DNA of 64,000 bases from Haloarchaeobius salinus (GTDB taxonomy: Archaea; Halobacteriota; Halobacteria; Halobacteriales; Natrialbaceae). The notes beneath the pieces were generated by a model, which was not told where the DNA came from, did not search any database, and saw nothing but the letters and a program-made list of their open reading frames with translations. The number at the start of each line of letters is the position of its first letter. The stretch's first letter is position 1. Shown here piece by piece: positions 20,703 through 30,234 of this stretch. A program made the translations under genes and the position numbers. The stretch is taken from assembly GCF_024464185.1 (NCBI RefSeq), contig NZ_JANHAU010000004.1, positions 62,001-126,000 on the forward strand, in the 5' to 3' direction.

Positions 20703-22055
20703 TCAGGCCGACGGCTGGCCCGAATCGTCGGTTCCGTCGCCGGAGGTGTCATCGCTGCTGTCGTCGGTTCCGGTGTCGGAGGTGTCATCGCTGCTGTCGT
20801 CGGTTCCGGTGTCGGAGGTGTCATCGCTGCTGTCGTCGGTTCCGGTGTCGGAGGTGTCATCGCTGCTGTCGTCGGAGCCGTCGTCGCTGCTGTCGTCGGT
20901 TCCAGTATCGGAGCCGTTGTCAGTCGCGGTGTCGGTCCCGTCGTCAGTTCCCGCGTCAGTCCCGTCGTCAGCACCCTCATCCTCGGTACCGTCGCCGTCA
21001 CCGACGGAGACGTTGTCGCCGGAGCCGCTGTCGGGGTCGTCGGGCTCCTGGACGGTGCTGTTGTCGCTGCCCTCGCTGACCGGGGTGTCACCCTCGTCGA
21101 CACTGCCATTCCCGTCGGCGCTGTCGTCGACACCGACGTTCTCGTCACCCGAATCACCGACGCTCGAATTGTCGACGGTAGTGGTCCCGTCCTCGACGCT
21201 GACGTTGCCGTCACCCGAGCCGCCGACGCCCGGGTTGTCGGCGGTGCTGTTGTCATCACCGACACTGACGTTCCCGTCGCCGGAATTGTCGACGGTACTG
21301 TTGCCGTCGTCGACGCTGACGTTCCCATCACCGGAATCGTCGACGGTGCTGTTGCCGTCGTCGACGGTACTGTTGCCGTCGTCGACGCTGACGTTCCCGT
21401 CACCCGAGTCGCCGACGGTCGAGTTGTCGACGGTACTGTTGTCGTCATCGACGCTGACGTTCCAGTCACCCGAATCACCGACGGTCGAGTTGTCGACGGT
21501 GTTGTTGCCATCGTCGACGCTGACGTTCCCGTCGCCCGAATCGTCCACCGTCGAGTTGTCGACGGCGGGCGCGACCGACTCGAACCCGACAGAGTGGGTC
21601 GAGAACGACGCCATGTGGAACGTCGCCCACGAGTAGCCGTCGACGTCGAGACGGTCGTACGGGGACGACTGTCCGTCGACGAGCAGCTGGAACGCCGTGA
21701 TGTCCATCCCGACGGCTGCGAGCGCGTCGAGCCGGACCATCACGGTCGCGGGCGAGTCCTCGACCCGGGAGACGGTGAACTCGACCACGCCGCCGGTGTC
21801 GGTGACGATGGAGACGACGGCCACGTCGTCGCCGTCGTGGAGGACCCGGATCGAGTCCTCCCAGGCGGGGTCGTCCGAGCCGGTGACCTGGACGGTTCCG
21901 GTATCGGGGGCCGGGGCTCCGGAGCCACCGACGGAGACGGCGAGGTTCTCGCGGTCCGCGAACAGCCCCGTGGTGACGCTGCCGCCGGCGACGGCGGCGA
22001 GCACGACGAGCACCGTGGCGAGCACGGCCAGCGCCGAGCTGTGTCTACTGCTCAT
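20703..22055 (-). CDS. Secreted Asp-rich glycoprotein with SipW-type N-terminus
   Basis: 450 residues. One N-terminal hydrophobic segment ends GGSVTTGLFADRENLAVSV, matching the T-x-A-x-F-x-D-x-E pattern of SipW-dependent (TasA/camelysin-like) signal peptides. A beta-rich region follows to about residue 165. The rest is repeats: first NSTV/GNVSV units with about twenty N-x-S/T glycosylation sites, then Asp/Ser/Thr units. It has no Tat motif and no C-terminal anchor. The ATG lies inside the end of the signal-peptidase gene (11-base overlap), so it is the last gene of that operon. The 36-base repeats at 20745-20875 are prone to slippage. Confidence 0.8.
   Translation of the reverse strand: MSSRHSSALAVLATVLVVLAAVAGGSVTTGLFADRENLAVSVGGSGAPAPDTGTVQVTGSDDPAWEDSIRVLHDGDDVAVVSIVTDTGGVVEFTVSRVEDSPATVMVRLDALAAVGMDITAFQLLVDGQSSPYDRLDVDGYSWATFHMASFSTHSVGFESVAPAVDNSTVDDSGDGNVSVDDGNNTVDNSTVGDSGDWNVSVDDDNSTVDNSTVGDSGDGNVSVDDGNSTVDDGNSTVDDSGDGNVSVDDGNSTVDNSGDGNVSVGDDNSTADNPGVGGSGDGNVSVEDGTTTVDNSSVGDSGDENVGVDDSADGNGSVDEGDTPVSEGSDNSTVQEPDDPDSGSGDNVSVGDGDGTEDEGADDGTDAGTDDGTDTATDNGSDTGTDDSSDDGSDDSSDDTSDTGTDDSSDDTSDTGTDDSSDDTSDTGTDDSSDDTSGDGTDDSGQPSA
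20745..20875. repeat. Perfect 36-bp tandem repeat, about 3.6 copies
   Basis: Units starting GGTGTCATCG begin at 20745, 20781, 20817 and 20853. The first three are identical over 36 bases and the fourth is partial. Each encodes a 12-residue Asp/Ser/Thr unit near the C-terminus of the secreted glycoprotein. The identity suggests recent amplification or homogenisation. Confidence 0.9.
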
Positions 22056-23256
22056 CGGACTCACCTCCGTCGGGCCGCGCGTCGCGAGCCGGGAACGTGT
22101 ACTCCAGCCCCTCGGCGTCGAACGCGTCGCCGAAGAGCGCGGCCCACGCAGCCTCCTCCGTGTCGACGGCGTCGTCGGTGTCGGCGGCTCCGTCCGTCGT
22201 GGGCTCCTCGTCGGCAGCGATGACCGCGGTCTCGACGTCGCCGTCGGTCGGCGCGTCGCAGACGTACAGCATCGTGCCGTCCGAGTAGCTGAGCCGGTCA
22301 GCCGCTTCGTCGTGGACGATCCAGCGCCCGGCCGCGGCGGCCATGGCGCGGAGCTCGTCCACGCTGGCGACGGTGACCGACGGCAGCGAGCGGGTCGCCT
22401 CGTCGAGCGAGCCCCGGAGCACGCCGCCCCCGGTGGCGGGCGTGTCGGCTGTCGGGCTGACGAACAGCCGCATACCGAGGAGCACCGCGAAGGCGACGGC
22501 GAACGCCGCGAACGCGGAGACGCTCAGCTGGAGCAACCGGAAGTAGGTGACGGACCCGTCGTAGACGAGGTAGGCCACCACGCCGGAGTAGACGGCTGCG
22601 ACGCCGGCGACCGCCATCGTCGCGGTCAGGTCCTGGACGCCGATGCTCCAGCCGTCGGTTTCGTCGTCGTCGACGACGGCCGCCACGGTTCCCACGCCGT
22701 CGGTCGCCGACCCGTCCCCGGTCCCGTCGGACTCGTCCTCGTTCTCTTCGCGGGCGCGCTTGACGAGGGCCCACAGTTCGGTGAGGACGAGCAGCGCGAT
22801 GGGTGCCGCGACGAGCAGCGCGAAGCCGGTCGTCGTCCCGACGAACTCGACCACGTACCCGATGAGCGGGATGGTGAGCATCACGCGGCCGACCAGCCGG
22901 TCGGGCGTGACGGTGCTCGCGTCGGGGTCCTCGTTGTTGTCGCCCTGTGTGACGAACTCGGGTCCGGCGGCGGTCTGCTGGATGTCGATGACCCGGTGGG
23001 TCGTCGGGACGGAGCGGTCCGCCGTGACGTACGTGATGACGTCGCCGACGCGCACGTCGTCGCCGTCCACCTCCGCGACCACGACCGCGTCGCCGACGGA
23101 GATCGCGGGCTCCATGCTGCCGGAGACCACCACGAAGCTCGCGTCACCGCCCGCGACCTGCGGGACGGCGAAGACGACGAACGGGACGACCAGCGCCACC
23201 ACGAGGAGCAGCGCGACGGCCCGGAGCACACCCCCGCGGGTCAGCTCGGGCGTCAT
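22045..23256 (-). CDS. Type I signal peptidase (SipW/Sec11-like) with large C-terminal extension
   Basis: 403 residues. An N-terminal helix is followed by the peptidase core: catalytic Ser in VVSGSMEPAI and His in PTTHRVIDI in place of the bacterial lysine, with Asp in QGDNNEDPD, as in archaeal and ER enzymes. A second membrane helix follows. About 220 extra residues then hold two more helices and a soluble acidic domain, resembling the DUF5305-type tails of some haloarchaeal signal peptidases (unconfirmed). Its start overlaps the upstream subunit gene by four bases and its end overlaps the glycoprotein gene, so it is probably dedicated to this operon's SipW-type substrates. Confidence 0.88.
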   Translation of the reverse strand: MTPELTRGGVLRAVALLLVVALVVPFVVFAVPQVAGGDASFVVVSGSMEPAISVGDAVVVAEVDGDDVRVGDVITYVTADRSVPTTHRVIDIQQTAAGPEFVTQGDNNEDPDASTVTPDRLVGRVMLTIPLIGYVVEFVGTTTGFALLVAAPIALLVLTELWALVKRAREENEDESDGTGDGSATDGVGTVAAVVDDDETDGWSIGVQDLTATMAVAGVAAVYSGVVAYLVYDGSVTYFRLLQLSVSAFAAFAVAFAVLLGMRLFVSPTADTPATGGGVLRGSLDEATRSLPSVTVASVDELRAMAAAAGRWIVHDEAADRLSYSDGTMLYVCDAPTDGDVETAVIAADEEPTTDGAADTDDAVDTEEAAWAALFGDAFDAEGLEYTFPARDARPDGGESDEQ

Positions 23257-24425
23257 CGGTTGCCACCTCCGTTGCCGGGGCCACCGGTAGCCGGCGGCCC
23301 ACCCGGACCCTCGTCGTCACCGTCCTTCTCGGGTGCACCGAGCACTCCCAGGGTCCCGTTGCCGTCGAGGTCACCGGGGCCGTAGTAGGCGACGCCACGG
23401 CCGCCCTTGATGGCGACCTGACAGAGCGTCGGGTCCGGCGTGTCGCCGTCTCCCTCGACGTGGAAGGCGAGCGCGACGACCTCGTCGCGGCCCCCGTCCT
23501 CGCCGGGCTTCGTCGCCGTCTCGGTCACGACGATGTCGTAGCCGGTGTCCTCGCAGTCGTCGTCGACCGGGAGGGTGTAGCGTCCGGGGACGACGTGGTT
23601 CTCCCCGAGCGTCGCGGGCGTGCCGATGCCGCAGTCCTCGGGGAGCGTGTCGTCGAGTTCGAGCTTCCCGAGGAGGACGCAGTCACAGCCGGGCGCACCG
23701 TCGTCGCAGACGTACACCTCGACGTAGCTGACGCCGTGTCTGTCCGGGCCGCAGTAGCAGTCGACCGGGACGACAGCCACGAACGGGCCGTCGTCGGTCG
23801 GGTCCGCGTGCCGGCACGCGACGGCCGCGAACTCGAAGCCGAGGCCGACGGTCTCCTCCCCGACGTAGTCGTCGGCGAGCTCGTAGTCGAGCCGCAGGTG
23901 GAGCGGCCCGTCCTCGCCGGCGTTCAGGCAGCCGGGAACGGTCGCGTTCGGGTCCTGGGACGGGTCCAGCGGCAGGCCGGTCTGGTACGTACGCGCCACG
24001 TCACAGAGCGTCCCCTCGAACAGGGGGTCGCTCGTGTACGCGCCGGTCCCGTCGACGTACCGGAGGCTGACGGTGAGCGCGCTCGCGAGTCGTCCGGTCG
24101 TCGACGGACAGAACGTCCGCAGCCAGGTGTAGGCAGGGTTGTTGACGCCGTCGTCGGACTCGGGCAGGTCCACGGTGAACAGGACGAACCCCCGTCTGCC
24201 GGGCGAGAGCGTCCCGAGGTCGATGGACACCTGTCCGTCGCTCGCGCCCGTGTCGCCGTCGTGCTCCCACCCGACCAGCAGGTCGAGCAGGCCGGCCCGC
24301 AGCGAGTTCCCGGTGAACCGCTCCAGGTCGGCCAGCGCGCCGTAGGTGCTCGCCGTCGAGATGGCACCTGCGCCGCCGATGACGGAGGCCCCGACGAGGA
24401 TCTCCCGGCGGGTGAGGCCGCTCAT
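23253..24425 (-). CDS. Tat-exported SipW-dependent (TasA-like) surface protein
   Basis: 390 residues. The N-terminus has a Tat motif (TRREILVG), a hydrophobic stretch and then GALADLERFTGNSLRAGLLDL, the SipW-type cleavage region leading into the first strand of a camelysin-like fold. The core ends with LGFEFAAVACRH near residue 195, as in the paralogues. A second, cysteine-rich region follows (CYCGPD, CDCVLLG) and ends in a Gly/Pro-rich tail. It overlaps both neighbours by ATGA. By analogy with bacterial TasA and archaeal bundling-pilus proteins it may be a fibre or matrix subunit; that is inference. Confidence 0.82.
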   Translation of the reverse strand: MSGLTRREILVGASVIGGAGAISTASTYGALADLERFTGNSLRAGLLDLLVGWEHDGDTGASDGQVSIDLGTLSPGRRGFVLFTVDLPESDDGVNNPAYTWLRTFCPSTTGRLASALTVSLRYVDGTGAYTSDPLFEGTLCDVARTYQTGLPLDPSQDPNATVPGCLNAGEDGPLHLRLDYELADDYVGEETVGLGFEFAAVACRHADPTDDGPFVAVVPVDCYCGPDRHGVSYVEVYVCDDGAPGCDCVLLGKLELDDTLPEDCGIGTPATLGENHVVPGRYTLPVDDDCEDTGYDIVVTETATKPGEDGGRDEVVALAFHVEGDGDTPDPTLCQVAIKGGRGVAYYGPGDLDGNGTLGVLGAPEKDGDDEGPGGPPATGGPGNGGGNR

Positions 24426-25162
24426 TCCGCACCTCCACAGCCGACGGCCTCGCAGACCAGGTCGAACGTGACGCTGTCGGTCTGGGTGTCGGCGCTGTCC
24501 GGGTCGAACCGCCAGGCCAGCCCGAGACAGCGGTTCTCGCCGCCGTCGAGACAGCCGAGGTCGATCCCCTCGGGGCCGTACTCGTCGCTCACACTCTGGA
24601 GCGAGCCCGTCGTGAGGGTCGTGTCGCCGAGCCCGCGACGGCCGTCGCAGCCGCCGAACAGGCTGGAGTCGCGCCAGATCTCGACGAGCAGGGCGTCCTG
24701 TAGCTCGCCGACGTCGGTCGTCGTGTCTCCCGCGACGGCCTCCGGCTCGACGATTCCGTTCTCGTCGGTCGCGGAGAGCTGCGGGAGAAGGCGGACCTGT
24801 GCCGGCGTGTCCACCGCCTGGAAGCCGACGACGAGGGTTCCCTCGTCACCCGGCATCAGGTTGTCGAGCGTCACGACGGGTCCGGAGACGCCGTCGACGT
24901 ACGCCGGCGATTCGGCCGGGTCGAGGACGGCGGTCCCGTTGGTCACCGTCGAGCCGTTCTGTCCCGCGAGGACGCCACCGTTGTACGTCTCGAACCAGGC
25001 GATCCGGACCAGCGAGTTCGGCGCGGCGTACGTGTAGTGCGTGTACGCCGGGGCATCGCCGAGATCGCCCGTCACTCCCGAGAGTGTGGCGATCCCGACG
25101 GCACCGGCACCGATGCCGGCGAGCAGGTCGCGTCGATTCAGTTGTTTCTGTGTAGATGTCAC
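24422..25162 (-). CDS. Tat-exported SipW-dependent (TasA-like) surface protein, first gene of the peptidase operon
   Basis: 246 residues from a GTG at 25162, preceded by GGGGGGAGACAC, the same G-run leader seen before the three genes further upstream. The Tat motif is NRRDLLAGIG. After the hydrophobic region comes a beta-rich domain with DNLMPGDEGTLVVGF, and the C-terminal QTDSVTFDLVCEA matches the last strand of the paralogues. The usual F-x-D-x-E segment is poorly conserved (VTGDLGDAPAYTHY). The stop overlaps the start of the next gene, which begins the four-gene run of overlapping frames down to 20703. Confidence 0.78.
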   Translation of the reverse strand: MTSTQKQLNRRDLLAGIGAGAVGIATLSGVTGDLGDAPAYTHYTYAAPNSLVRIAWFETYNGGVLAGQNGSTVTNGTAVLDPAESPAYVDGVSGPVVTLDNLMPGDEGTLVVGFQAVDTPAQVRLLPQLSATDENGIVEPEAVAGDTTTDVGELQDALLVEIWRDSSLFGGCDGRRGLGDTTLTTGSLQSVSDEYGPEGIDLGCLDGGENRCLGLAWRFDPDSADTQTDSVTFDLVCEAVGCGGAE

Positions 25163-25607
25163 GTGTCTCCCCCCTGCCGCCCCCCAGGCGGCGTGTCGGA
25201 CTCGACGACGTGACCGGGCGACCGACCACTGTCGGTCCACCGGGTCCGTTCGTCGTCGTTTCTCGCCTGTCGGGAGGACAGCGACGGGCTTAGGTATGGG
25301 TCGCCCGCCACCGGGATACGGACCACTTCCGACCGCTCGTGGAGCGGTCGGCTGACCCTGCCGGTCCGGTACGGCGACCCTGGAACCGTTCGCCCGAAGC
25401 GACGTCGGCGACCTCGGTGGGTCCGCGTCGTCGGTCGTCGGTCGAGAGTTGTCCCCGTCCGCGGGGAGGACCCGGCGACGGAGTCGAACCGTCGTGTGAC
25501 CGCTCCGGGTCGATGTGTTCGATGACGGCGGCCGCCCCCGTCATCGGGCTACGGGGTCATGGTAGCGGGATGGCCGGCTCGGTCGAGCCGGACGTGGCCG
25601 GTTCAGC
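25163..25607. other. 445-bp intergenic region holding T-arm-like element A
   Basis: No convincing gene is seen. The region contains the T-arm-like element at 25469-25511 and a following CCCC/GGGG hairpin around 25452-25466. It also holds a GCCGCC/GGCGGC hairpin just before the GTG at 25162. A possible minus-strand TATA region lies near 25290-25300 (CCATACCTAAGC). It separates the vWA-subunit genes from the signal-peptidase operon. Confidence 0.6.
25469..25511 (-). promoter_or_regulatory. tRNA T-arm-like RNA element, copy A
   Basis: Read on the minus strand: a 7-bp outer stem GACCCGG/CCGGGTC encloses 11 unpaired bases, then a 5-bp stem GACGG/CCGTC closing a 7-base loop TTCGACT, then one spacer base. 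The inner hairpin has the exact geometry and consensus of a tRNA T-arm. It is about 300 bases upstream of the gene starting at 25162. Confidence 0.6.
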
Positions 25608-27131
25608 TCAGGCGGCGGAACCGAACGGGTTCGCGTTCTCGTCGTTGTGCCGGCACTGCACGGCGGCGAAGTCCAGGTCGAACTTCACGGAGTCGGTCTG
25701 GATCTCGTTGCCCACCTCGCGCGGGATGCACCACTCCATCGCGACGCAGTGGGTGCCCGGCAGGAAGCAGTACTCGTCGTCGTCGCTGGACTGGGCCAGC
25801 AGCGGGAGCGCCTCCAGCTTGAGGCCGCTCGACGCGGCGTCGTTGAACTCCGCCAGGGTGCCCTCGAAGAACACCACCTCGCCCACCACGACGGACTCGA
25901 TGATGGACTCGTAGATGACCGGAAGGACGACCGCGAGGTCGTCGGCCGAGGTGTTGTAGTAGTCGGTCCCGTCGCCGTCGCCGGGGTTGTTGACGGCCGT
26001 CCCGGCCATGTCCCGGAGCAGCTGGGGATCGCCGTCGCCGGGGTCGTTGATGTCGATGACGATGATGCGGGTGCCGCCGGCCTTCGCGTCGTTGGCGGCC
26101 TGCAGCTCGTCGACGTTGCTCTCGAACTGCTCGCCGTCGGTGAGCAGGATCATGATCTTCTGTGCGCCCGAGCGAGCGTTCGCGCTCAGGTAGTTGTCGC
26201 CCTCCTGCACCGCGAGCCCGAGGGCCGTGCCGGTCACGCCCTCCGGGACCGCGTCGACGCTGGAGATGGCGTTCTGTACGTCGGTCTCGTCGTCGGACGG
26301 GCCGAACGCGATACCGGGAGCCTGGTCGTCGCCGATGTAGTCCTCGTTGCCGAACGTGAACACGCCGATCTCGGTGTCGGCGGTCTCGTCGAAGACGATG
26401 GTGGCGAAGTCACCCATCGCGTCCTTCGCGACGGCGAGCTTGGTGGTCGTGCCACCCTGGCCGTCGGAGATATCGCCGCCGTACTGGTCGTACTCCATCG
26501 AGCCGGAGATGTCCTGCACGACGAGGATGTCGCTCGTGCCGACGCCCTCCGTGATGGTGTTCGAACAGTCCTCGTCGTACCAGAGGGTCACGTCGATGTT
26601 CTCCGCGAGTTCGCCCACGTCGGGCGTGTCGTCGACCTCGCCCTCGGGCTCGGTGAGTCCGTTGTCGAGGTCGTCGTAGACGCTCCCGCGCATCCAGAGG
26701 TAGGCGGGGTTGTCACAGATGTGGAGGCTGACGGTGACCTCACCGCAGTCGCCGGGCTTGACGTCGTCGAGCTCGAAGACGGGGATCGCCTCGCCGTCGA
26801 TGAAGCCCTCGGTGTCGCAGGCGAAGCCGAGGTCCGCGCGCTCCTCCCAGGTCATCGGACCCTCGGCCATGTCGATGAGCCCCTGGTCGATGAGCTGCTG
26901 CTCGGTCGGTGCCTGGCCGATCATCTCGACGCCGTTCGGGCCGTCGTAGGTGGCCTTGTAGTCGAGCTGGAGATCGAGCCGGCCGGCGGCGAGGCTGTTG
27001 CCGACGAAGCCCTCGCGGTCGTTGAACAGTGCGGTCGTGCCGAGGCCCGCGCCCGCGGCAGCGATGCCGGCCGTTCCGAGACCGGCGAGGACCGTCCGCC
27101 GGGTGATGTCGTATGTCTGTTTGTCGCTCAT
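25608..27131 (-). CDS. TasA-like surface protein with inserted von Willebrand A domain (paralogue 1)
   Basis: 507 residues from ATG 27131. The Tat motif is TRRTVLAG at 10-17; GTTALFNDREGFVGNSLAAG (31-50) is a clear SipW-type region. The fibre-like fold runs to VTLWYDEDCSN (~181-191), is interrupted by a vWA domain (about 198-412), and resumes at VVFFEGTLAEF (419-429), ending QTDSVKFDLDFAAVQCRH. The MIDAS metal site is complete: DISGS (207-211), Thr in TGTALG (~302), and TDG (331-333). Conserved cysteines could form disulfides. A metal-dependent adhesive head on a surface fibre is the simplest reading, but it is inferred. A GGGGGGAG leader precedes the start. Confidence 0.88.
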   Translation of the reverse strand: MSDKQTYDITRRTVLAGLGTAGIAAAGAGLGTTALFNDREGFVGNSLAAGRLDLQLDYKATYDGPNGVEMIGQAPTEQQLIDQGLIDMAEGPMTWEERADLGFACDTEGFIDGEAIPVFELDDVKPGDCGEVTVSLHICDNPAYLWMRGSVYDDLDNGLTEPEGEVDDTPDVGELAENIDVTLWYDEDCSNTITEGVGTSDILVVQDISGSMEYDQYGGDISDGQGGTTTKLAVAKDAMGDFATIVFDETADTEIGVFTFGNEDYIGDDQAPGIAFGPSDDETDVQNAISSVDAVPEGVTGTALGLAVQEGDNYLSANARSGAQKIMILLTDGEQFESNVDELQAANDAKAGGTRIIVIDINDPGDGDPQLLRDMAGTAVNNPGDGDGTDYYNTSADDLAVVLPVIYESIIESVVVGEVVFFEGTLAEFNDAASSGLKLEALPLLAQSSDDDEYCFLPGTHCVAMEWCIPREVGNEIQTDSVKFDLDFAAVQCRHNDENANPFGSAA

Positions 27132-27160
27132 TGTATGTGTACTCCCCCCTTTCGGGGAAC

Positions 27161-27212
27161 GACCCACCGACGGAGTCGAACCGTCGTCGTCGGTCCCTGC
27201 GACCGATGGGCC
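27161..27212 (-). promoter_or_regulatory. tRNA T-arm-like RNA element, copy B
   Basis: The inner hairpin GACGG-TTCGACT-CCGTC is identical to the other copies. The outer stem differs (GGCCCAT pairing with GTGGGTC, including G-U pairs) but still forms seven pairs. The 20-base interior contains its own small hairpin, CGGTC/GACCG. It lies 30-81 bases upstream of the start of vWA paralogue 1. Between them is a CCCC-GAAA-GGGG hairpin that overlaps the G-run before the ATG. Confidence 0.6.
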
Positions 27213-27262
27213 ACCGTCGCGCCCCCAGGCACGACGGACGAGGCAGTCAGTCTTCGGTCGGT

Positions 27263-28741
27263 TCAGTTCGCAGCCGTGGTCGTGGGCGGCGTGCTGTTGC
27301 CACTGTCGGTGCTGTTGTTCTCACCACCGGGGTTGTCGTTGTGGCGCGACTGTTCGGCGTCGACCACGAGGTCGAACATGATGGAGTCGGTCTGGACCTC
27401 GTTGCCGACCTCCGCGGGCAGGCACCATTCGAAGCCGATGCACTGCGTGGTCACGGCCGCGTACGGGTCGCGCTCCTCGGAGGTGCGGTCGCCGTCGAGC
27501 GGGACGCCCTCGGCGAGTGCAGCGAACACCTCGGCCATCGTGCCCTCGAGGATCTTCACCTCGCCCTCGAGGACGATCTGTGCGATCTCCTCGTAGATGG
27601 TGTCGAGGTCGGCGGCGTCCGGGGCGATGAACGCGTCCCCGGGGTTGCTCGCGATGTTGTTCGCGAGGTACGTCTGGTCGGCACCGGCACCGAGCGCGAT
27701 GGTGAAGATGCGGATACCGTTGTTCTTCGCGTCGGTCGCGGCCTGCGCCGCGGCCGACGGGTCGTTGACGACGCCGTCGGTCAGGACGATCATGACCTTC
27801 GACGCCGAGGGCGTCGCGTTCGTGCCACCCATGAGCTCGTCGTCGGCGATCGAGATGCCGGCGGTCATGTTCGTTGCGCCACCCGCGGTGTAGTTGTTGA
27901 TGGCGTCCTTGACGGCCTGGTAGTTGGTCGTGAGCTCCTGGTCGAGGCTCCCACTGCCGTTGAACGAGACCGCGGCAACTTCGTCGGGCTGTGCGAGGTT
28001 GTCGACGAAGTCGGTGGCCGCGTTCCGGAGTGCGGCGATCTTCGAACCGCTCATCGAGCCGGAGGTGTCGCTGACGAGTGCGACCTCGAGCTCCTGGCCC
28101 TCGCCCTCGCCGCCGGGCTCGTAGACGTTGTCGCAGTCCTCGTCGTACCAGACGCATACCTCGATGAGGTCGGCGAGCTCGCCCATGCCGTCCGTGTCCT
28201 CGCCCTCGTCGGCGAGCTCGGGCTCGGTCTGGCCGTTCTCGTTGTTGGCGTAGACACTCCCGGAGAGGTCGAGCCACGCCGGGTTGTCACAGATGTGGAA
28301 GCTGATGGTGACCTCGCCGCAGTCACCGGGCTTGACGTCCGAGAGGTTGAAGACGGGCAGCTCGTCGCCGTTGACGAGGAACTCGTCGGCCTCGTCCGAA
28401 CAGAACTGGAACTGCTCGCCCATGACGAGGTCCTCCCACGCCTGCATGTCGGCCGGGCTGGGTGCCTGGTCGAGCAGGTACCGCCCGTCGCCGAGGTCCT
28501 CGGCGTCCGGGTAGCCCATGGCGACGACATCGTCGAGGCGGCCCGCACCGCCGAGGTAGGTCGCCTTGTAGTCGAGCTTCAGGTCGAGCGAACCAGCCGT
28601 GAGGCTGTTGCCGATGAACCCCTCGCGGTCGTTGAACAGTGCGGTGGTGCCGAGGCCCGCGCCCGCGGCCGCCACGCCGACGGTCCCCAGTCCGGCGAGG
28701 ACTGTCCGTCGGGAGATGGTGTGTTGTCTGTCGTTGGTCAT
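27263..28741 (-). CDS. TasA-like surface protein with inserted von Willebrand A domain (paralogue 2)
   Basis: 492 residues from ATG 28741. The N-terminus is nearly the same as paralogue 1: SRRTVLAGLGT, then GTTALFNDREGFIGNSLTAG. The fibre-like fold is interrupted after VCVWYDEDCDN (~195-205) by a vWA domain (about 216-390) and resumes at EVKILEGTMAEVF, ending QTDSIMFDLVVDAEQSRH. MIDAS residues are present: DTSGS (225-229), Thr in TNMTAG, and TDG (321-323). The vWA sequence is only distantly like that of paralogue 1 although the flanks are close. It ends in a short Asn/Ser/Thr tail with N-glycosylation sites. Confidence 0.88.
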   Translation of the reverse strand: MTNDRQHTISRRTVLAGLGTVGVAAAGAGLGTTALFNDREGFIGNSLTAGSLDLKLDYKATYLGGAGRLDDVVAMGYPDAEDLGDGRYLLDQAPSPADMQAWEDLVMGEQFQFCSDEADEFLVNGDELPVFNLSDVKPGDCGEVTISFHICDNPAWLDLSGSVYANNENGQTEPELADEGEDTDGMGELADLIEVCVWYDEDCDNVYEPGGEGEGQELEVALVSDTSGSMSGSKIAALRNAATDFVDNLAQPDEVAAVSFNGSGSLDQELTTNYQAVKDAINNYTAGGATNMTAGISIADDELMGGTNATPSASKVMIVLTDGVVNDPSAAAQAATDAKNNGIRIFTIALGAGADQTYLANNIASNPGDAFIAPDAADLDTIYEEIAQIVLEGEVKILEGTMAEVFAALAEGVPLDGDRTSEERDPYAAVTTQCIGFEWCLPAEVGNEVQTDSIMFDLVVDAEQSRHNDNPGGENNSTDSGNSTPPTTTAAN

Positions 28742-28767
28742 TGCTGTTTACTCCCCCCTGAGGGGAC

Positions 28768-28811
28768 GACCCGGCGACGGAGTCGAACCGTCGGCCGAAC
28801 CACTCCGGGTC
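28768..28811 (-). promoter_or_regulatory. tRNA T-arm-like RNA element, copy C
   Basis: Outer stem GACCCGG/CCGGGTC, 12 interior bases, inner hairpin GACGG-TTCGACT-CCGTC, one spacer base. It is located 27-70 bases upstream of the start of vWA paralogue 2. A CCCC/GGGG hairpin lies between the element and the ATG and again includes the G-run preceding the start. Confidence 0.62.
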
Positions 28812-28836
28812 AGTTGTTTCGGGCCGGAGCCCGGGT

Positions 28837-30168
28837 TTACTCGAAGGCGAGGTCGAGCGCGACGCCCTCCTCGGCGGAGCTGTCGTAGTCGCCCTGCACC
28901 GTTCCAGTCAGGTCGCCCGTCACGGTGAACGGCCCGGAGACCTGTGCTGCGCTCGTGTTGACGACGAGGTGCTGGATGTCGCGGTCAGTGCCGTCGTCGT
29001 CGTTCGACGCGGTCATCGTGTTGGGACCGACCAGGCCGATCGAGTCGCCGCCGACGTTGAGTGCGAGGTTGTCGACCGTCACGGTTGCCTCGTCGGCCTT
29101 GCCGACGAACGCGAAGCGTCCAGCGGGTGCCGGAATCGAGTCGCTAACGGTCACGCCGTCGACCGAGAAGGCTGCGGAGCCCGCACCATCGTACTCGTAG
29201 GTGAACGGGACCGTCGCACCGGAGGTCCAGGTGTAGTCCGCCTCGTCGGCGTTACCGGGTGCGGTACCGACCGCGAGTTCCCAGGTGTTCACGCCGCCGT
29301 AGCGGGCCCGTGCGAACGAGGACTTCTGGAACGGTTCGAAGCCCTCGCCCTGGCTGGTCGTCACGACGGGGTTGTGCCGCGACTGCTCGGCGTCGAAGGT
29401 CAGGTCGAACTTCACGGAGTCGGTCTGGACCTCGTTGCCCACGTCGATGGGCAGCTCCCAGTAGAAGCCGATGCAGTAGGTGCTCGCGCCGGGGACCGGG
29501 TCGAACTCCGGGGTGCTGGCGTCGCCGTCGAGGCCGATGCCGGCCTCGAGCGCGGCGAACGCGTCGGTCATGCTCCCCTCGAAGATGACGACCTCGTCCT
29601 CGTCGAGGACGTTGTTGCAGTCCGGGTCGTACCACATGGTGACCTGGATGGCGTCGGCGAGCTCGCCCACGCCGTCGGTGTCCTCGCCCTCGTCGGCGAG
29701 TTCGGGCTCCGTCTGGCCGTTCTCTGCGTTCTCGACCAGCTCACCGGACATCGTCACCCACGCGGGGTTGTCGCAGATGTGGAGGCTGACGGTGACTTCG
29801 CCGGAGTCGCCTGGCTTGACGTCGTCGAGGTCGAAGACGGGGATCTCGTCGCCGTTGATGAGCATCGCCTTGCCGTCGTCCGAACAGTAGTCGATCTCGC
29901 TGCCCTCGCCGAACTGGTCCTCCCACGCCTGTTCCTCGTCCGGGGTGGGGCGCTGTCCGAGGATCTCGACGCCGTTCGGGCCGTCGTAGGTCGCCTTGTA
30001 GTCGAGCAGGAGGTCCAGCGAACCCGCGGTGAGGAGGTTCTCGCTGAACCCCTCGCGGTCGTTGAACAGTGCGGTGGTGCCGAGGCCAGCCCCCGCGGCT
30101 GCGACGCCGACGGTGCCGAGTCCCGCGAGTACGGTACGCCGAGTGAGGTGTTGTCTTTCGTCTGTCAT
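28837..30168 (-). CDS. TasA-like surface protein without vWA, with a C-terminal beta domain (paralogue 3)
   Basis: 443 residues from ATG 30168. The Tat motif TRRTVLAGLGT and SipW region GTTALFNDREGFSENLLTAG match the other paralogues. Here VTMWYDPDCNN (~176-186) runs straight into VVIFEGSMTDAF, so the fibre-like fold is uninterrupted and shows where the vWA domains were inserted in the others. The fold ends QTDSVKFDLTFDAEQSRH at ~265. A further ~175-residue beta-rich domain follows (VNTWELAVGT, TWTSGATVPFTYEYDG), vaguely like bacterial choice-of-anchor domains. This is probably the first gene of the three-subunit set. Confidence 0.85.
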   Translation of the reverse strand: MTDERQHLTRRTVLAGLGTVGVAAAGAGLGTTALFNDREGFSENLLTAGSLDLLLDYKATYDGPNGVEILGQRPTPDEEQAWEDQFGEGSEIDYCSDDGKAMLINGDEIPVFDLDDVKPGDSGEVTVSLHICDNPAWVTMSGELVENAENGQTEPELADEGEDTDGVGELADAIQVTMWYDPDCNNVLDEDEVVIFEGSMTDAFAALEAGIGLDGDASTPEFDPVPGASTYCIGFYWELPIDVGNEVQTDSVKFDLTFDAEQSRHNPVVTTSQGEGFEPFQKSSFARARYGGVNTWELAVGTAPGNADEADYTWTSGATVPFTYEYDGAGSAAFSVDGVTVSDSIPAPAGRFAFVGKADEATVTVDNLALNVGGDSIGLVGPNTMTASNDDDGTDRDIQHLVVNTSAAQVSGPFTVTGDLTGTVQGDYDSSAEEGVALDLAFE

Positions 30169-30193
30169 TGATGTGTTTCCCCCCCTTGGGGAG

Positions 30194-30234
30194 GACCTGG
30201 TGACGGAGTCGAACCGTCTGTCCCACTCCAGGTC
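30194..30234 (-). promoter_or_regulatory. tRNA T-arm-like RNA element, copy D
   Basis: Outer stem GACCTGG/CCAGGTC, which differs from copies A and C by one compensated base pair. The interior is nine bases, and the inner hairpin GACGG-TTCGACT-CCGTC is unchanged. The spacer base is A instead of G. It lies 26-66 bases upstream of the start of paralogue 3, with a CCCC/GGGG hairpin over the G-run next to the ATG. Confidence 0.62.

Follow-up and report, generated by a model that had tools for sequence, protein, structure and literature searches.

The stretch of Haloarchaeobius salinus DNA analyzed here (64,000 nucleotides; contig NZ_JANHAU010000004.1, positions 62,001 to 126,000; hereafter the window) carries on its minus strand a cluster of genes for exported fimbrial proteins with SipW-type signals, together with a signal peptidase gene (Table 1). 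Four copies of a small structured element, A to D, lie ahead of these genes. The element is a real and widespread RNA element, and in form it is a t-element in mRNA leaders: an acceptor-like stem surrounds a T arm with a TTCRANY loop, and a full cloverleaf is missing.

An earlier note on this DNA had described four minus-strand copies with an identical hairpin, GACGG-TTCGACT-CCGTC, inside outer stems of seven base pairs (bp) that vary yet stay paired. Both descriptions are accurate, as the 17-mer matches exactly at all four sites and the outer strands read as described. With ≤3 mismatches allowed, the window contains seven matches compared to 2.06 expected, a number reached by 0 of 100 shuffles; the four elements are not due to chance. 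On the minus strand, each element begins with a 7-base strand, followed by 9–20 interior bases, the T-arm hairpin with its TTCGACT loop, and the 7-base partner strand. The 5-bp T-arm stem given in the note applies to D, which has A.A at the position of a further pair. In A, B, and C an additional C-G pair closes the T stem, giving 6 bp that abut the 7-bp outer stem, so that 6 + 7 bp can stack without a gap. Similarly, the three copies placed 25–80 bases upstream of genes are B, C, and D, which end 25–29 nucleotides (nt) from the next start codon, while A lies about 305 nt away.

Table 1. Features of the fimbrial cluster in the window.
Feature	Position	Strand	Description
Element D	30194..30234	-	Outer stem GACCTGG/CCAGGTC and T arm; precedes first operon gene
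Hairpin flush behind D	30178..30192	-	TCCCC..GGGGGGGA; holds Shine-Dalgarno; from predicted fold
Gene 1	28837..30168	-	SipW-type signal peptide; choice-of-anchor W domain at its end
Element C	28768..28811	-	Outer stem GACCCGG/CCGGGTC; starts 25 nt past gene 1 stop
Hairpin behind C	28752..28766	-	With Shine-Dalgarno; 28767 is the predicted discriminator
Gene 2	27263..28741	-	SipW-type signal, von Willebrand factor A domain
Element B	27161..27212	-	Outer stem GGCCCAT/GTGGGTC, middle hairpin; starts 50 nt past gene 2 stop
Hairpin behind B	27143..27159	-	With Shine-Dalgarno; 27160 is the predicted discriminator
Gene 3	25608..27131	-	SipW-type signal, von Willebrand factor A domain
Element A	25469..25511	-	Lies between genes 3 and 4; outer stem GACCCGG/CCGGGTC; kept in four genomes of genus
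Hairpin behind A	25452..25467	-	TCCCC GCGGAC GGGGA; conserved in genus
Gene 4	24422..25162	-	Twin-arginine/SipW-like exported protein downstream of A
Signal peptidase I	22045..23256	-	Archaeal/SipW-type, same cluster; TIGR02228 112.5 bits, cut-off 51.85

The elements are not tRNA genes, as the note had also held. ARAGORN matches element B alone, as tRNA-Leu(cag) (window 27160-27235); this call and a true tRNA gene in general were rejected because there is no cloverleaf with D arm and anticodon arm, and calls of this type are probable false annotations in databases. Rfam returned no family match above the gathering score, the best being a sub-threshold tRNA-Sec on B, so that a known Rfam family was rejected as well. 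The same applies to an intrinsic terminator, since no T run stands behind the elements or behind the second hairpins that follow them. When single sequences are folded, the proposed structure is the minimum free energy structure for A and B, an alternative fold competes in C and D, and z-scores of single copies against shuffled sequences show no significance. Support for the structure is therefore comparative.

Among 143 distinct sequences, aligned to the structure in a way that hence favors it, 95.3% of cells are paired, and both stems covary. Changes on both sides occur in 10 of 12 pairs, and such cells number 103 compared to 30.8 in shuffles (0 of 500 reach this value). Sliding the partner strand by 1–3 columns as a control lowers pairing to 21.7–54.7%. 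Longer relatives contain an extra middle hairpin. Moreover, a GG dinucleotide follows the outer stem after 2–4 nt in 114 of 142 copies (33.5 expected), although the model columns favor GG. The N3-GG arrangement is also present in elements preceding 5S rRNA and in the primer for a Haloferax volcanii t-element construct, ACCGATATTGG. In tRNA, G18/G19 of the D loop and the T loop form the elbow recognized by RNase P and by RNase Z, the latter via a flexible arm (PMC4810234). By analogy, the GG past the outer stem could stand in for the tRNA D loop.

An exact degenerate pattern, run over a collection of bacterial and archaeal species, finds 24 stretches that are all haloarchaeal (among others from Halorubrum, Halobellus, Halolamina, Halobaculum, Halobacterium, Haloglomus, Halosimplex, Salinigranum, Halomicroarcula, and Halorussus). 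With a covariance model (R2), the element is found in 132 of 391 Halobacteria genomes and 40 of 86 genera, the genome count including a few elements from 5S leaders. The covariance models contain no gene information, and the usual placement of the matches is 15–35 nt upstream of genes with a SipW-type signal peptide or of Taf-like fimbrial genes. Element and SipW-type genes occur together in 111 genomes, the element alone in 21, SipW-type genes alone in 60, and neither in 199, which amounts to an odds ratio of 17.5 computed across genomes regardless of relatedness. Outside the genus, 67 of 95 copies sampled from high-scoring matches precede SipW-type genes; most others precede other exported proteins, including relatives of the TafA/C/E/F fimbrial families that score below NCBIfam cut-offs. 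A scattered repeat was therefore rejected. The covariance-model search suggested in the earlier note and the pairing retained in the outer stems of relatives thus bear out its proposal of a covarying RNA shaped as acceptor stem plus T arm at surface-fiber genes. Literature searches yielded no account of RNA elements at the SipW or Taf operons of haloarchaea.

Some individual loci depart from the usual layout. One copy precedes the gene for a SipW-type signal peptidase itself (L096). Three elements stand ahead of three consecutive genes without a match in Pfam or NCBIfam (L053 709-1540), and at another locus the element lies about 60 nt from the start of an AglG-related glycosyltransferase gene with a second T-arm-like hairpin in between (L036 1501-1542). 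Two tandem elements occur at L093 2713-2884, the second followed by an apparently broken start of a SipW-type gene.

The H. salinus genome itself holds five more convincing copies in addition to the four in the window. Four of the five belong to a second fimbria operon on contig C2 with the same kind of genes and have differing outer stems (GACCCAC/GTGGGTC and the like); folding predicts a middle hairpin in three of these four. The ninth copy stands ahead of another exported protein (L072). Model R2, whose training set included most of these nine, places all nine at E≤1.3e-4, followed by a doubtful match at E 8.5e-4 and the next at E 1.46. The doubtful match (C1:990230, GGTCCGACTCC) was itself in the training set and is probably false. 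Model R1, built from seven of the nine, scores the other two at E 0.0012 and 0.0077. The element is carried by six of the eight strongest SipW-type genes in the genome. The first gene of the C2 operon (L011 9080-9120) has no element and retains a strong hairpin before its Shine-Dalgarno sequence.

Model R1 was made from fimbrial elements alone and matches, in other genera, elements that end 1–2 nt before 5S rRNA. The 5S gene of H. salinus is likewise preceded by an element of the same architecture, ACCGACGCCAGGTTGGCGTAGGCAACGGTTCGAATCCGTTGGTCGGCG. In H. volcanii, the 3′ side of the 5S t-element is cut by tRNase Z, as PMC4326828 and PMC7714728 relate with reference to Hoelzle et al. 2008, 2012. 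The H. salinus genome encodes a tRNase Z (339 bits, well above the family cut-off). One and the same model thus recovers the fimbrial elements and those before 5S rRNA. The founding location of t-elements is directly before 5S rRNA and the window copies precede fimbrial genes; this location belongs to the type example and does not define the structure. Hence, what we claim is a shared structural type and a likely mechanism, without equating the fimbrial copies with the 5S element.

A second hairpin (TCCCC...GGGGA; in B TTCCCC...) begins one base past the outer stem in the window copies; behind B, C, and D, the Shine-Dalgarno sequence is part of its 3′ arm. With relatives included, this hairpin starts 0–1 nt past the element in 99 of 117 leaders, and a hairpin of such quality occurs anywhere in the leader in 108 of 117 compared to 37 expected. 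No TATA-like motif was found within element and leader in 113 cases. A promoter-type DNA element was rejected on this ground, and transcripts probably begin upstream; a start downstream of the element, which the earlier note had named as incompatible with its proposal, is thus not suggested by the sequence. CCA next to the discriminator hinders tRNase Z, and it follows the discriminator directly in 0 of 119 copies, which counts for little because the context is C-rich. The interval of about 290 nt between A and gene 4 (window 25163-25451) is about 90% conserved in four Haloarchaeobius genomes and is possibly a structured leader or a small RNA.

We therefore lean toward the view that the window elements are an mRNA-borne haloarchaeal type of t-element, at which tRNase Z cuts the fimbrial transcript and gives the cistrons separate 5′ ends. 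The earlier note had proposed RNase P cleavage, which might set subunit ratios, or a T-arm-recognizing protein. A tRNA-processing enzyme is indeed the best candidate reader, with tRNase Z favored because the same architecture stands directly before 5S rRNA and is cut there by this enzyme in H. volcanii. tRNase Z would bind the elbow of the element and cut the polycistronic transcript behind the discriminator, one base past the outer stem. For D, the predicted discriminator base is 30193, and the cut is expected between 30193 and 30192. The downstream mRNA would then begin flush with the GC-rich hairpin, often carrying the Shine-Dalgarno sequence, and the element may be released through a further cut by RNase P on its 5′ side. 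Several relatives have the ATG just 1–4 nt past the element, and here the tRNase Z cut would produce an mRNA with practically no leader. Each cistron would thereby receive a defined 5′ end of its own, be protected, and be translated individually, and tRNA-trimming enzymes probably cut haloarchaeal fimbrial mRNAs into one-gene units in this way. More tentatively, and as a possibility we would not yet call probable, haloarchaeal tRNA mimics might punctuate mRNAs, with tRNA-maturing enzymes splitting fimbrial operons by a code shared with 5S maturation.

Several points weigh against cleavage by tRNase Z. Compared with tRNA, the T stem has one additional pair, which 5S elements have as well. For C and D, pairing of GGAG with CUCC gives a competing fold that is 0.9–1.4 kcal/mol better, and the stable hairpin right behind the proposed cut site might hinder the enzyme. 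Element D precedes the first operon gene, where separation of cistrons is needless; the element is thus not purely an intercistronic separator. Furthermore, some SipW-type genes of the same genome have no element. Finally, Hoelzle et al. 2012 reportedly predicted 47 more tRNA-like structures in H. volcanii, and those tested, which may or may not be of the fimbrial type, are said to have remained uncut in vitro.

The main rival is a translational role without cleavage, which we regard as rather unlikely. Here, the tRNA-like domain would dock a T-arm-binding protein, a ribosome factor, or a fimbrial regulator and thereby open or close the Shine-Dalgarno hairpin. In 85 of 117 leaders, the second hairpin does hold the Shine-Dalgarno sequence in its 3′ arm; the median distance from element end to start codon is 23 nt, and the alternative folds of C and D would suit such switching. 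However, the same element also stands before 5S rRNA, an untranslated RNA, and no Shine-Dalgarno hairpin fits where the start codon follows within 1–4 nt. Less likely still, RNase P instead of tRNase Z might cut on the 5′ side, so that the minihelix would remain attached to the downstream mRNA and protect it like a cap. Acceptor stem and T arm make up a minimal substrate of RNase P. Artificial t-element constructs in H. volcanii are cut by RNase P as well as by tRNase Z (PMC4326828), but the native 5S t-element serves for the 3′ cut according to the accounts in PMC4326828 and PMC7714728. Moreover, the second hairpin abuts the 3′ side of the element, as would be expected of a new 5′ end at that place. 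That the element has no RNA function and is a palindromic repeat or DNA site copied with the fimbrial genes is very improbable and already disfavored by the covariation: copies do precede paralogous genes and duplicate along with them, but both stems show compensatory changes, the spacing is strict across many genera, and the T-loop sequence is retained while the stems change.

In a transcriptome study of Halobacterium salinarum and H. volcanii, processing sites numbered in the thousands, and the internal ones shared no unifying motif (PMC8303175). Few specific archaeal mRNA cleavage signals are known. With an element that is structured, can be searched for, and has a candidate enzyme, part of this question becomes directly testable. 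The element would also connect the expression of surface fimbriae with tRNA maturation, and it accounts for one type of false tRNA call.

In mitochondria, tRNA units between the genes of polycistronic transcripts are cut by RNase P and RNase Z, which frees the mRNAs. The tRNA-shaped units between genes are a common feature of both systems, whereas the haloarchaeal units are not functional tRNAs and mainly serve a set of surface genes. Model substrates of RNase P share acceptor stem and T arm with the element; these minihelices are laboratory constructs and are cut on the 5′ side. Engineers have used t-elements to free CRISPR RNAs (crRNAs) in H. volcanii (PMC4326828, PMC7714728, PMC4946936). 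Placed on both sides of a crRNA, t-elements remain functional in a transcript foreign to them and release the RNA that they flank (PMC4326828, PMC4946936); these constructs are artificial, whereas the fimbrial copies are natural. The closest relative is the 5S t-element of H. volcanii, which, as described by Hoelzle et al. 2008, 2012 and cited in PMC4326828 and PMC7714728, has the same acceptor-like stem and T arm with a TTCGANY loop. Both also have GG shortly past the outer stem and a position directly before the RNA to be released. Unlike the 5S t-element, the window copies precede protein-coding cistrons, are followed by a Shine-Dalgarno hairpin, often contain a middle hairpin, and are predicted rather than observed to be cut. 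This type of element was already known as a guide for cutting before haloarchaeal 5S rRNA.

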